5,720 bases of DNA from JACRDV01 sp024860865 [NCBI: Methanobacteriota archaeon] (GTDB lineage: Archaea; JACRDV01). The DNA lies in NCBI GenBank assembly GCA_024860865.1, contig JACRDV010000118.1:1-5720 (forward strand). Direction: 5' to 3'. The notes beneath the pieces were generated by a model. That model was not told the DNA's origin. It searched no databases and saw only the letters and a program-made list of their open reading frames with translations. Positions 1,929-5,720 of this stretch are shown piece after piece. Numbering within the stretch: position 1 is the first letter of the stretch; every line of letters starts with the position of its first letter. Made by a program: the position numbers and the translations under genes.

Positions 1929-1942
1929 TTTCTTATATTTAG
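1929..1942. promoter_or_regulatory. AT-rich TATA element in the divergent surE / surface-protein promoter region
   Basis: The stretch TTTCTTATATTTAG reads as a TATA-like element on both strands. On the minus strand CTAAATATAAG (1942-1932) would set a surE start near 1909-1911, giving a leader of about 36 bases. On the plus strand CTTATATTTA would start transcription near 1962-1964, roughly ten bases before the GTG at 1974. The same 12-mer AATTTCTTATAT (1927-1938) reappears upstream of the gene at 4654. A single box shared by both divergent genes is inference. Confidence 0.5.
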
Positions 1943-1973: not shown

Positions 1974-3029
1974 GTGAGCAATATAATTCAAATAGGGTCC
2001 TCTTTGCCACTTGCTCAAAGGCTTGGAGTTTTGTATCGAATAATCGGCATTGTATTGATATTTTTGTCTCTTTTTAGCTACCCATGCCTAGCACAGGAGA
2101 AAAAATTTGATGTGATAATTGTACGAAGCGACATCTCAATCGACTGGATAGTAGCCCAAGCTTATGCCCAAAAAATGAAAATCCCTATTTTAACTGCTGA
2201 AGAAGATTACCTGAGCCAAGAAGCGCAAATCGAGTTATATGGCTACAAGCAATTTGGTTGGACCAAAATTTTGGTAATAGGCGGATCAAATGCAGTTTCT
2301 GATAATATTGTTAATGAATTAAAAGCTTCTGGATTTGAAATTCAAAGAATTTGGGGGCTCCACAGATATGAAACGGCCGCAAAAGTTGCAGTTGAACTTT
2401 GGCAAAATCCAAAGACAGTTGTTGTTACAGATGGAGAAAAGTTCGAGGCAACCTTAGCTGCAGCAAGGATAGCACGGGAGTTAGAAGCGCCAATTCTTTT
2501 AATAAAAAAAGATGATTTAACAGAAGATACCAGACGTGCTCTTCTTGAATATCTCAAACCAGATGAAGCTATTATAATCGGTCCAGTTTCAGAGAGCGTT
2601 GAAAAGGAGCTAAGAGGAATTGCAAAAAAAGTAACCCTCATTGGAAGAGACATTGAAAGCACGCAATTGCTAGAGCGAACTAAATTTCCAATTTGGAAGG
2701 ACCCTAAGTTAATGGCGGTCCTCGGACTAATCTCCGGCATTGTTCTGTCTGTCCTAATAGTGTTTGGAGTTTCATTTATTCGAACAAGAAGGCTAAAGGC
2801 AAAGGAGCATTTACCAATAGCACTGCTGACTGAGGAAGAGCGCAAAGTTGTTGATGAAATAATAAGAGCAGGTGGAATTCTCAAGCAAGAAAACCTACCT
2901 GACCTTACAGGTTTTTCTAGGCCAAAAATTAGCAGATTGATTTCAGACCTTGAGGTTCGAGGCATACTTGTTCGGGAGAAGGATGGAAAATCATACCGAC
3001 TTAGTTTTGAAAAACGCTTCAAAACTTGA
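1974..3029 (+). CDS. Membrane-anchored surface protein: two CWB2-like repeats, one transmembrane helix, cytoplasmic winged helix
   Basis: An N-terminal hydrophobic segment (residues 23-40, ending PCLAQ) looks like a signal peptide or anchor. Two repeats resembling cell-wall-binding repeat 2 follow. The first (about 47-140) has VIGG at 101-104 and the hallmark RIWGLHRYETA (125-135). The second (about 148-225) runs from VVVTDGEKFEATLAAARIA through IIIGP to LIGR. A transmembrane helix spans about 246-269 and is followed by RTRR, placing the C-terminus in the cytoplasm. Residues 284-345 form a MarR/TrmB-like winged helix, with recognition-helix candidate SRPKISRLISDLEVRG and a wing at VREKDGKSYRL. 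I infer a one-component regulator with an external sensing or binding part and a DNA-binding tail; ligand and targets are unknown. The start is uncertain: GTG at 1974 has no clear Shine-Dalgarno, while TTG at 2031 would give a tidier signal peptide with GGAG close upstream. Its promoter is divergent from surE. Confidence 0.8.
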   Translation: MSNIIQIGSSLPLAQRLGVLYRIIGIVLIFLSLFSYPCLAQEKKFDVIIVRSDISIDWIVAQAYAQKMKIPILTAEEDYLSQEAQIELYGYKQFGWTKILVIGGSNAVSDNIVNELKASGFEIQRIWGLHRYETAAKVAVELWQNPKTVVVTDGEKFEATLAAARIARELEAPILLIKKDDLTEDTRRALLEYLKPDEAIIIGPVSESVEKELRGIAKKVTLIGRDIESTQLLERTKFPIWKDPKLMAVLGLISGIVLSVLIVFGVSFIRTRRLKAKEHLPIALLTEEERKVVDEIIRAGGILKQENLPDLTGFSRPKISRLISDLEVRGILVREKDGKSYRLSFEKRFKT

Positions 3030-3077: not shown

Positions 3078-3097
3078 TGAAAGCGTTTGAAAGCGTT
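3078..3097. repeat. Perfect tandem 10-bp repeat between the surface-protein gene and the sugar dehydrogenase
   Basis: TGAAAGCGTT occurs twice head to tail (3078-3087 and 3088-3097), a period of one helical turn. A near-inverse copy, AACGCTTCA (3013-3021), lies in the preceding gene end and lacks one T relative to the exact complement. The pair is about 80 bp upstream of the dehydrogenase TATA box. It could bind a dimeric regulator, but no function is shown. Confidence 0.6.
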
Positions 3098-3170
3098 CTA
3101 GAGATTTTCACAAGGTCTATAAACCATAGTATCTTCTATTATTTGTCTGACACAATCGTTTCAAAATTAG

Positions 3171-3181
3171 CCTTAAATATA
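3171..3181 (+). promoter_or_regulatory. TATA-box promoter of the nucleotide-sugar dehydrogenase
   Basis: CCTTAAATATA is a good archaeal TATA element centred near 3177. With normal spacing, transcription would start near 3202-3204, ten bases before the TTG at 3213 and downstream of the TTG at 3195. This is the main argument for the shorter start. The sequence TAGATAT occurs twice just downstream (3180-3186 and 3189-3195). A weaker alternative TATA candidate, CTATAAACC, lies at 3117-3125. Confidence 0.5.
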
Positions 3182-3212
3182 GATATCTTAGATATTGAGT
3201 GGGGCAATTAAA

Positions 3213-4535
3213 TTGAATTTTACAGAATTAAAAAAATTTATTGAAGATTCGAGCGCTAAAATTGTTGTAGTTGGATTAGGTTATGTTGGTCTTCCAACCT
3301 CAGCATTATTCGCGAGAGCTGGTTTCGATGTTACTGGAACTGATATCAATAGAGAGTTAATTGAGAAGATAAATCGAGGACAGTGCCCCGCGGTTGAACC
3401 AGGGCTTTTGGATTTAGTTGTGAAAGCTGTTAAGAAAGGTAAACTAAAAGCCGATAGCGATACTGTTTCGGCAGTCGAAAAGGCAAATGTGGCTGTAATA
3501 GTCGTAAATACACCAATTCAGGGCTCAGATATTGATTTAATGCCTCTGGAGGAAGCATCTAAAGCTGTTGGAAAAGGCTTACAAAAAGGAACTTTAGTTG
3601 TTATTGAGAGCACAATTCCACCTAAAACCACTGAAGATTTCGTGATTCCAATATTAGAAGAACAATCAAATTTAAAAGCTGGATATGATTTTTGGGTTGC
3701 TTATTCTCCTGAACAGGCGATTCCTGGTAAATTTTTAGATGAAATGCGAAATCAACCCAGAATTATTGCTGGAATAAATCCTGAAAGCACAGAGCTTGCT
3801 GCTACCTTATACAAAAAGATAGTTGATGCCAAAATCGTTGAAGTAAATAACCCGGCTGTTGCTGAGCTCGCAAAAATTTTACAAAATACTTATCGAGATG
3901 TTAACATTGCACTGGCAAATGAAATTGCATTAATATGTGAAAAACTTGGAATTGATGTCCATGAAGCAATTGAGCTTGCTAACATTCATCCAAGAGTGCA
4001 TCTTCACAAACCAGGAGCCGGTGTTGGCGGACCTTGTATACCGAGGGACCCACTTTTTCTAATTGAAAAAGCAAGGGAAGTGGAAGTTAAACCAAGATTG
4101 ATTGAGCTTGCGCGCCAGATAAACGAAGAGATGCCTGACCATGTGGTTCGCTTAACATTAGAGGCTTTTGAAGAATCAAAAAGACAAATTGCTAATGCAA
4201 AAATCGCAGTGCTCGGAGTGGCGTATAAAAAAGATGTTAACGATGTTCGAGCCTCACCTGCTAAACCTATCATTCAAGGCTTACTAAAACATGGGGCTGA
4301 AGTCGTTGTGCACGATCCTTATTGTAACGAAACCTTTGGCGGAAAGCCCGCAAAAACGCTTGAAGAAGCATTAGATTATGCAGCTGCCGCAATTATAGTA
4401 ACTGACCATTCAGCTTATGAAAGGATTAACATCGATTACCTAATGGAACACATGCAAAACGTGACTATTGTCATAGATGCTCGTGGAGTACTACCTTCTG
4501 TGTCCAAACCAAATCTGGTTTTCAAAAGGATTTAA
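3213..4535 (+). CDS. Nucleotide-sugar dehydrogenase (UDP-N-acetyl-D-mannosamine/glucosamine 6-dehydrogenase type, WecC/WbpA-like)
   Basis: This family oxidises C6 of a UDP-sugar to the uronic acid with two NAD+ in the cytosol, supplying precursors for surface polysaccharide or glycoprotein glycans. From the start used here (440 residues) the N-terminal Rossmann fold shows GLGYVGLP (21-28) with Asp44 after it. VNTPIQ (98-103) and IESTIPP (131-137) follow. YSPEQAIPGKF (164-174) follows, then the central helical domain with AELAKILQNTYRDVNIALAN (217-236). The catalytic cysteine is Cys275 in GVGGPCIPRDPLFL. GVAYKKDVNDVRASP (335-349) and HDPYC (367-371) mark the C-terminal UDP-binding domain. GGPCIPRDP resembles WecC/WbpA (GGHCI) more than UDP-glucose dehydrogenase (GGSCFPKD), so an N-acetylhexosamine substrate is likely but not proven. 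The TTG at 3213 fits the promoter and usual N-terminus; TTG at 3195 would add six residues. No other sugar genes adjoin it. Confidence 0.92.
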   Translation: MNFTELKKFIEDSSAKIVVVGLGYVGLPTSALFARAGFDVTGTDINRELIEKINRGQCPAVEPGLLDLVVKAVKKGKLKADSDTVSAVEKANVAVIVVNTPIQGSDIDLMPLEEASKAVGKGLQKGTLVVIESTIPPKTTEDFVIPILEEQSNLKAGYDFWVAYSPEQAIPGKFLDEMRNQPRIIAGINPESTELAATLYKKIVDAKIVEVNNPAVAELAKILQNTYRDVNIALANEIALICEKLGIDVHEAIELANIHPRVHLHKPGAGVGGPCIPRDPLFLIEKAREVEVKPRLIELARQINEEMPDHVVRLTLEAFEESKRQIANAKIAVLGVAYKKDVNDVRASPAKPIIQGLLKHGAEVVVHDPYCNETFGGKPAKTLEEALDYAAAAIIVTDHSAYERINIDYLMEHMQNVTIVIDARGVLPSVSKPNLVFKRI

Positions 4536-4541
4536 AATTTG

Positions 4542-4579
4542 CATTTTTTGCAAGATAAAACATTTTTTGCGAAATAAAA
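4542..4579 (+). terminator. Duplicated T6 terminator (19-bp tandem repeat)
   Basis: Directly after the dehydrogenase stop, a 19-bp unit beginning CATTTTTTGC occurs at 4542-4560 and again at 4561-4579, with 17 of 19 matches. Each copy supplies a T6 run (4544-4549 and 4563-4568). The first also sits in the small inverted repeat TTGCA/TGCAA. Paired T tracts downstream of a stop are the expected archaeal intrinsic termination signal, here apparently made double by local duplication. It insulates the dehydrogenase from the next promoter. Confidence 0.65.
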
Positions 4580-4985: not shown

Positions 4986-5720
4986 TTGAATATTCTGGTT
5001 TTTGAATATGCTGTTGGTGGAGGATTTAAAAAAGAGATTGATCCATGGATACTTGCTGAAGGCTATGCGATGTTTTCAACAATTGCTAGTGGATTTAAAA
5101 AAGCAGGTCATATAATTACTGGATTGGTTGACAATAGATTCTACGCTTTAAAATTCTTGGATGAACAAATTAAAGTTGAGCCGGGTAAACATCTTGAAAA
5201 ACTAAAAAATGCAACTAAAGAATGTGATATTGATGCTGTTTTTGTTATAGCTCCTGAGTCAAATTCTGAACTTTATTTTGCAAGCAAAATAATAGAGGAT
5301 AACGGCATTGTTTTACTTGGGAGTTCAAGCGAGGGTATTAAAACAACTTCAATTAAGGCGCATACATATCGAATTCTTAAAAATAAAGTGCCATTGCCTC
5401 CAACAAAGATAACGACTTTTAAACTAACTGAGGCAAAACTTGCAGTTAAAGAGGTTGGAGGCTATCCAGTTGTTGTAAAATCAGTTGACGGCGTTGCTTG
5501 TTCGGGATTGAGTTTTGTTAAAAATGATGCGCAACTTTTGCAAGCGCTGATAAAAACAAATAAAATTTCAAAATTTCAATATTGCTTAGTTCAAAAATAT
5601 TTAGAGGGTATACATGCTAGCGTAAGTTTAATTTGCAACGGGCACTCTGCATTTCCGCTTTCACTTAATCAACAATTTATTAAACTTAATCTCCCAGAAG
5701 CTGAATCGAAATATTTTGGA
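4986..5720 (+). CDS. ATP-grasp ligase related to tyramine-L-glutamate ligase MfnD (COG1821-type), 3' end cut by the window
   Basis: The frame stays open for 245 codons to the last base; family members run to roughly 300-330 residues, so about a quarter is missing. ATP-grasp enzymes join a carboxylate to an amine through an acyl-phosphate. MfnD makes gamma-glutamyltyramine for methanofuran. Visible are the N-terminal strand ILVFEYAVGGG (3-13) and an acidic-helix region around FVIAPESNSEL (86-96). GSSSEGIKTTSIKAHTYRIL (112-131) matches the segment leading into the ATP-grasp domain. YPVVVKSVDGVACSGLSFV (160-178) carries the ATP-binding Lys165, and LVQKYLEGIHASVSLI (201-216) the adenine-contacting strand. 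The closing acidic metal ligands lie beyond the edge. The TTG at 4986 is the only usable start between an in-frame stop at 4968 and the conserved first strand; GGGA is a weak binding site. MfnD-like is from motif memory; a different amine or amino-acid substrate is possible. Confidence 0.82.
   Translation, partial: MNILVFEYAVGGGFKKEIDPWILAEGYAMFSTIASGFKKAGHIITGLVDNRFYALKFLDEQIKVEPGKHLEKLKNATKECDIDAVFVIAPESNSELYFASKIIEDNGIVLLGSSSEGIKTTSIKAHTYRILKNKVPLPPTKITTFKLTEAKLAVKEVGGYPVVVKSVDGVACSGLSFVKNDAQLLQALIKTNKISKFQYCLVQKYLEGIHASVSLICNGHSAFPLSLNQQFIKLNLPEAESKYFG

Follow-up and report, generated by a model that had tools for sequence, protein, structure and literature searches.

The open reading frame at positions 1974–3029 of the window (the whole 5,720-nucleotide stretch of archaeal DNA that was analyzed) is predicted to encode a one-component transcription regulator that is tethered to the membrane and controls the synthesis of surface glycans, a reading to which we give a probability of about three in four. 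The protein appears to join an outer domain of the wall-anchoring type to an inner DNA-binding domain, and the gene is accompanied by a putative control site; thus it probably adjusts the sugar coat from the membrane. The novelty lies in a candidate operator and regulon, proposed from sequence comparisons, for a membrane-bound regulator. Features of the locus are given in Table 1.

Table 1. Positions of features in the window (residue numbers are those of the 351 aa protein)
Feature	Position	Strand	Basis
Probable TATA box of the regulator gene	1933..1941	+	by eye
CWB2-TM-winged-helix protein, 351 aa	1974..3029	+	ORF, Pfam, AlphaFold2, co-linear relatives
Signal peptide, residues 1–41	1974..2096	+	hydropathy; likely cleavage CLA/QE by eye
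CWB2 repeat 1, residues 44–112	2103..2309	+	PILT motif at residue 71
CWB2 repeat 2, residues 125–204	2346..2585	+	RIWGLHRYETA at 125, PILL motif at 173
Transmembrane helix, residues 244–269	2703..2780	+	hydropathy and AlphaFold2; part of predicted helix 244–276
Winged helix, DUF7343, residues 284–347	2823..3014	+	Pfam, AlphaFold2, Foldseek, VIA-align
Recognition helix with SRPKISR, residues 315–328	2916..2957	+	alignment and AlphaFold2
Tandem operator-like element GAAAGCGTTTGAAAGCGTT, two half-sites, 10-bp period	3079..3097	+	pattern, PWM and layout searches
Inverted half-site AATCGTTTCA	3154..3163	-	75 bp past tandem start, 8 bp before TATA
Probable TATA box CTTAAATATAG of the dehydrogenase gene	3172..3182	+	by eye and promoter alignment
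Nucleotide-sugar dehydrogenase (TIGR03026), predicted target	3195..4535	+	profile matches

The open reading frame is not due to chance, since many archaea have co-linear relatives of it, 24–38% identical over the alignment. Its start codon is either GTG 1974 or TTG 2031, and by eye the signal peptide is kept with both. Pfam analysis shows the CW_binding_2 (CWB2) domain (PF04122) with a protein-level E-value of 9e-17, and both repeats are above the cut-off in the genome scan; with a profile match above the curated cut-off and a predicted CWB2 fold the protein is assigned to this family. The two repeats seen in the first-pass annotation are thereby confirmed, and the RIWGLHRYETA signature named there lies at residues 125–135, where it opens the second repeat. 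An AlphaFold2 model built with 53 aligned sequences (mean pLDDT 90.1, pTM 0.62) displays alpha/beta units over the CWB2 part, a helix at 244–276 and a canonical winged helix at 287–345. In structural comparison with VIA-align, residues 44–229 match Cwp6 (Z 18.9, 2.0 Å, 181 aligned residues) and residues 43–229 match Cwp8 (Z 18.2, 2.2 Å, 181 aligned). Anchoring by CWB2 proteins of Clostridioides difficile, as given in the accessible text of PMC4973711, takes three tandem repeats, and two are found per chain here.

The winged helix had been annotated as MarR/TrmB-like at residues 284–345. Structure prediction does place a winged helix there, and the family is DUF7343 (PF24034; residues 285–344, E-value = 3.2e-9, 36.9 bits against a cut-off of 27.6) rather than MarR or TrmB proper, because the MarR family profile MarR_2 (PF12802) gives 17.1 bits, below its cut-off of 27. 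TrmB (PF01978) is absent from the Pfam matches of the window protein at E-values up to 1 and is matched by 42 of 53 relatives at E-values up to 0.01. Residues 281–351 are best matched in VIA-align by MarR-type regulators (Z about 10–11, about 70 residues aligned), hence the winged helix of the window protein is MarR-like in its predicted fold alone. Residues S315, P317 and R321 of the recognition helix are invariant in the 53 aligned rows and the wing glycine G338 is nearly so. Conservation, as mean majority fraction, is highest in the winged helix (0.65), compared with 0.52 and 0.47 in the CWB2 repeats and 0.33 in the transmembrane segment.

A signal peptide followed by a single membrane helix had also been proposed, and this agrees with hydropathy, which peaks only around residues 11–35 and 246–264, and with the AlphaFold2 helix. 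From the signal peptide and the one helix the DNA-binding domain is predicted to be on the cytoplasmic side. Lys and Arg are more frequent in the 15 residues after the helix than in the 15 before it in 42 of the 53 members, equal in eight and fewer in three; net charge is higher after the helix in only 35 of 53. The topology check thus puts the winged helix inside by prediction, and the protein, whose single chain combines a predicted DNA-binding domain with a membrane helix, would count as a transmembrane transcription regulator.

When 394 genomes from the domain of the window organism (the archaea, as the named relatives suggest) were searched with a profile and up to five candidates per genome were scored, 64 of them gave one match of at least 204 bits each. 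At least three of these strong matches are cut by contig ends (G199, G271, G392). The next match, at 142 bits, is limited to the CWB2 part. Among the aligned members DUF7343 is found in 53 of 53 and CWB2 in 52 of 53; alignment A2 is without L114, L123 and the cut loci L084, L086, L101, L112 and L120, and alignment A1 is without L037. The named relatives are from Thermococcus, Theionarchaea, Methanofastidiosia, Hydrothermarchaeota, Methanodesulfokora, other Thermoproteota and Naiadarchaeum, with one Aenigmatarchaeota record, and the family tree mostly tracks these groups. The window gene forms a long branch of unsettled placement: placing it in a clade with the Hydrothermarchaeota-like loci, the Thermococcales or L064 gives AU p values of 0.31, 0.69 and 0.55, respectively, none of which decides. 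In five loci (L046, L048, L049, L051, L052) a tRNA-Arg(gcg) gene of the same orientation contains the start of the regulator frame or comes right before it.

By eye, the position of the TATA box makes TTG 3213 the more likely start of the nucleotide-sugar dehydrogenase gene downstream. No other PF03721 gene was found in the window organism's genome, which is 92% complete. In 10 of 59 loci, the window among them, the regulator is immediately followed by a dehydrogenase gene in the same orientation (the 59 are the window and 58 named loci, with those cut by contig ends kept in the count), and the gap between the two genes is 94–187 bp in these ten; in L072 the dehydrogenase gene is four genes away. 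A GT4-type glycosyltransferase gene is within seven genes in 18 of the 59 loci. Thermococcales-like loci, 18 in number, have a metallo-beta-lactamase-fold gene directly upstream, and FEN1, PTH2 and EF-1 beta genes are near the regulator in Thermoproteota loci. Outside the dehydrogenase, Thermococcales-like and Thermoproteota sets the gene order is variable.

Several other sequences are present around the locus. An MfnD-like ATP-grasp gene, whose match scores are under the NCBIfam cut-off, is found downstream of the dehydrogenase in the window (4986–5720, past a 101-aa open reading frame) and in L076, L095, L102 and L294; a hydantoinase-like gene comes after it in six of the 59 loci and in L294. 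Positions 1–49 appear by eye to be the 5′ half of a minus-strand tRNA gene cut by the contig end, and a 19-bp tandem repeat CATTTTTTGCRARATAAAA is located at 4542–4579, just past the dehydrogenase gene.

Two stretches had been suggested in the first-pass annotation for DNA-binding assays, 3078–3181 and 1877–1942. The first does contain the tandem operator-like element. The second fared otherwise: a window search finds a 21-bp tandem duplication TATTCACYTTTATGGTCTAAT at 1876–1917, with two copies 95% alike, at the surE leader and ribosome-binding region. This was rejected as a regulator operator and is taken to be a duplicated surE leader, because it covers, by eye, the surE ribosome-binding region.

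The tandem element has the consensus GRAANNGTT-N-GRAANNGTT and is situated between the regulator and the dehydrogenase. In 15 of 16 promoters the TATA box follows 93 bp after the tandem start, and in G107 94 bp after it; the spacing is likewise 93 bp in the window (3079 to 3172), where the TATA box departs from the TATA pattern used for the 16 promoters. In all, 17 other genomes have the layout before dehydrogenases at 93 bp (94 bp in one). About 75 bp downstream of the tandem start there is a proximal half-site, which is inverted in the window. In G065, G086 and G235, and less clearly in G341, the proximal half-site is in the forward orientation (e.g. GAAATGGTTGC) with the distance unchanged. 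Over 15 promoters the identity to the window sequence is 0.75–1.0 for the tandem core and 0.7–1.0 for the proximal site, compared with 0.44–0.67 for the TATA box and 0.23–0.37, the background level, for the spacer. Markov sequences of window composition contain the tandem in 1 of 20000 gaps; the pattern had been drawn up from the window first and then from other loci, i.e. with both in view.

The 350 bp upstream of dehydrogenase genes were scored for 68 of the 74 PF03721 matches in 37 genomes (six fragments were dropped) and for the window gene. Among the 14 regulator-paired dehydrogenases the tandem is exact in ten, a count which, like 15 of the 17 layout sites described below, is partly by construction because the pattern followed inspection of these loci. 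Three of the others show two mismatches and one (G217) shows three; the G217 tandem by itself is not significant (p 0.15). The 55 other dehydrogenase genes have no exact tandem, one tandem with one mismatch and seven with two. Of these eight, G145 (one mismatch) and G023 (two) keep the element at the usual distance while their regulator is elsewhere in the genome, and G253 (two) is within 450 bp of a contig end, as is its regulator. The remaining five, in G022, G027, G069, G138 and G353 (two mismatches each), are at other distances and partly on the opposite strand. In the dehydrogenase tree 13 paired genes together with those of G145, G023 and G253 form one group (SH-aLRT 89), and the window dehydrogenase is placed outside of it with weak support.

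The exact tandem occurs once in the 1.54-Mb genome of the window organism, at window position 3079. Across 40 chosen genomes there are 16 exact matches in 15 genomes, ten of which are the paired sites; none is in the nine of these genomes that are without the regulator. The six other exact tandems, all in regulator bearers (G341, G271, G217, G353, G265, G027), compare with ten matches of the reversed pattern, and single exact tandems elsewhere therefore mean little. The bare tandem with one mismatch is at background level in the window organism's genome (15 matches versus 15), and loose half-site patterns are at or near background within the window.

A position weight matrix (PWM), trained with the window and the Naiadarchaeum-type loci left out, was used to scan 825 kb of orthologous loci. 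Its top 12 matches are all located before the gene that follows the regulator or, in L072, before the dehydrogenase; the window ranks eighth (23.8), and two Naiadarchaeum-type loci, L071 and L087, rank ninth (20.2) and twelfth (16.9), with L112 and L120 at 17.1. The reversed matrix gives two matches of 16 or more in the same 825 kb. Counts from the PWM are not independent, because many of the L and G loci are identical contigs. The full layout, with up to two mismatches, is found at 17 sites in 16 of the 394 genomes, and its reversed control at none in 394. All 16 genomes carry the regulator, 15 being among the 64 with a strong match and the other being G306, and no site is found in the 329 genomes without a strong regulator match. 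Beyond 15 sites already known the search added only G306, where a contig-cut regulator is directly before the site and a dehydrogenase follows, and a second site in the window organism's own genome. The G107 (94 bp) and G217 (three mismatches) promoters fall outside the full-layout pattern. The layout search found no site in families f6 and f17, which make up 35 of the 64 bearers and are named, by sequence likeness to named loci, as Thermococcales and Methanodesulfokora-like Thermoproteota, respectively. Likewise no element is present near the regulator gene in Thermococcales and Thermoproteota loci.

The second site of the own genome is at L293 1828–1926 on the minus strand. Its proximal part is 0.89 identical and its spacer 0.35 identical to those of the window. 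It is located 45 bp before a 203-aa open reading frame that is without a Pfam match and, by eye, begins with a hydrophobic N-terminal part; the surrounding cluster contains genes for a DegT-type aminotransferase, a GT4 enzyme and an O-antigen polymerase. On the other side of the site starts a 297-aa open reading frame, also with no Pfam match.

L071 and L087 have a similar tandem, with one mismatch, directly behind the regulator gene. The operon that follows encodes DUF354, Glycos_transf_4 (PF00953), an epimerase, GT2 and DUF2304 proteins (identified by Pfam for L087 and by likeness for L071). The tandem-to-TATA distance is 92 bp in L071 and is compressed to 40 bp in L087. The third Naiadarchaeum-type locus, L079, has no element behind the regulator gene. 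Autoregulation would fit the half-site tandems that overlap the start codon of the regulator gene itself in L087 and L079.

Taken together, the proposed mechanism is as follows. The CWB2 ectodomain would be located outside, behind a cleaved signal peptide, with one helix passing through the membrane and the DUF7343 winged helix in the cytoplasm. Conservation and co-occurrence suggest that the winged helix binds the tandem half-sites together with the inverted half-site; bound just upstream of BRE/TATA, it would control the nucleotide-sugar dehydrogenase gene, and the second promoter, inside the glycan cluster of the same genome, would be under the same control. The sites are upstream of BRE and approximately whole helical turns apart, which suggests activation through TFB/TBP recruitment, and we lean modestly toward this over repression. 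Archaeal activators typically bind upstream of BRE, according to the accessible text of PMC5512572. The first-pass annotation had guessed at a one-protein route from the cell surface to DNA with a link to surface glycans. This has strong indirect support from the operator-like element that accompanies the gene and precedes glycan genes, and direct binding and signaling remain predictions; that interpretation as a whole is partly supported.

The chances are about even that the CWB2 part reads the state of a surface polymer or S-layer glycan and feeds back on its synthesis. In Clostridioides difficile, CWB2 repeats recognize the polymer PSII and three are needed (PMC4973711, accessible text), versus two in the window protein, so that oligomers would be required for a like arrangement. 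Only slightly less credible is that the glycan genes are indeed regulated but that the CWB2 part senses S-layer protein, a partner CWB2 protein or a metabolite, or serves only as an anchor. The presence of two CWB2 units, not three, fits such a reading, as do the other arrangements of the winged-helix module.

The genome of the window organism has six DUF7343 genes above the cut-off, including the window gene. The other five have membrane helices and no further Pfam match at an E-value of 0.01; the L010 product has almost no ectodomain, and those of L009, L011, L013 and L014 show a signal peptide, an ectodomain without a Pfam match, one transmembrane helix and DUF7343. As judged from their predicted domain order, the membrane winged helices of this genome are a module with exchangeable outer parts. 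Six further CWB2 loci in the genome are all without a winged helix. In G022 (L141:1840-4298) and G043 (L142:1481-4062) a gene of the order signal peptide, ectodomain, transmembrane helix, coiled coil and DUF7343 shares a ten-base overlap with a separate gene for a secreted CWB2 protein; here the TM-DUF7343 protein has an ectodomain of its own, which again fits a CWB2 part that senses something other than glycan or only anchors. A glycosyltransferase gene is next in both split loci (by Pfam in G022, by likeness in G043), an ftsZ-like gene (by eye) precedes the G022 pair, and no convincing tandem element is found near either pair (best scores 12.2 and 4.1). Against these observations stand the binding of surface polysaccharide by C. 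difficile CWB2 (PMC4973711, in its accessible text) and the predicted targets here, which are polysaccharide genes.

A broader and more tentative version of glycan sensing would have an ancient archaeal switch for envelope homeostasis. The CWB2 part would bind polymer and gauge finished glycan, genes for nucleotide sugars and glycan assembly would be controlled straight from the membrane, several tethered winged helices would meet one face of the DNA together at the fixed 75/93-bp geometry, and the switch would have been rewired to different glycan operons across phyla.

Control of the promoter element by the linked regulator has to be weighed against binding by a different, unlinked transcription factor, with the CWB2-winged-helix gene a mere neighbor that acts elsewhere. 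Binding of the element by the winged helix is a prediction, the element stays with the dehydrogenase in G145 and G023, where the regulator is elsewhere in the genome, and the Thermococcales and Thermoproteota loci are without the element near the gene, all of which would fit an unlinked factor. However, L071 and L087 have a similar element right after the regulator and ahead of another operon, tandem half-sites overlap the regulator start in L087 and L079, and the full layout is confined to the 16 regulator-carrying genomes as against none of the 329 without a strong match. An unlinked factor is on this evidence unlikely. It is least probable that the winged helix is non-transcriptional, binding protein or tethering the chromosome to the membrane while the ectodomain serves as an S-layer anchor: winged helices are able to bind protein, phmmer gives a weak match to an ESCRT-III chain (E 0.35) and the centromere-binding AspA and TubR winged helices are among weak Foldseek matches, but the best VIA-align matches are MarR-type regulators, the recognition-helix and wing residues are conserved as given above, and an operator-like element is linked to the gene.

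Membrane-bound one-component regulators are already known in archaea (PMC10269533; PMC6396743, accessible text of both). The transmembrane transcription regulators, among which archaeal members are counted, likewise combine a DNA-binding domain with one or more membrane helices in one protein (PMC10269533, in part). The terms CWB2, MarR, DUF7343 and “cell wall” do not appear in the accessible main text of PMC10269533. Compared with the regulators described there, the window protein has its predicted DNA-binding part at the C-terminal end, a signal peptide with an ectodomain of the wall-binding type, and a candidate operator and regulon. ArnR and ArnR1 of Sulfolobus acidocaldarius are also archaeal membrane-bound one-component regulators of surface structures; they differ in an N-terminal HTH, a putative HAMP and sensing domain, two C-terminal membrane helices, the lack of CWB2 and other targets, as far as the accessible text describes them (PMC6396743).

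The C. difficile proteins Cwp6, Cwp8 and SlpA (PMC4973711, accessible part; PDB 5j72, 5j6q) share the CWB2 fold (Z 18–19 to Cwp6 and Cwp8) and a PILL-type motif. There, three repeats anchor proteins to the wall, whereas here a winged helix is coupled to two repeats that are predicted to be held at the membrane. EarA of Methanococcus maripaludis, an activator, also has repeated sites immediately upstream of BRE/TATA, but these are four 6-bp sites, the target is the archaellum operon, and a CWB2 ectodomain is not described in the accessible text (PMC5512572). No prior report of the architecture or the operator was found among the matches listed, in titles and abstract openings of the open-licence literature, and no paper on DUF7343 was found in that literature. 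CipA and CipB of Pyrococcus furiosus are cold-induced membrane proteins. They were dropped as a comparison, being termed solute-binding proteins in the accessible text of PMC10746257.

The regulator family is widespread, with one strong match per genome, and is now paired with a candidate site, a promoter geometry and predicted target genes. To our knowledge, few archaeal membrane-bound regulators have a defined operator, and little is known of the way in which S-layer and surface-glycan synthesis in archaea is matched to the condition of the envelope. DNA binding, the direction of control and glycan sensing thus become direct questions for the bench. If the proposal is true, a wall-anchoring module would have been turned into a sensor.
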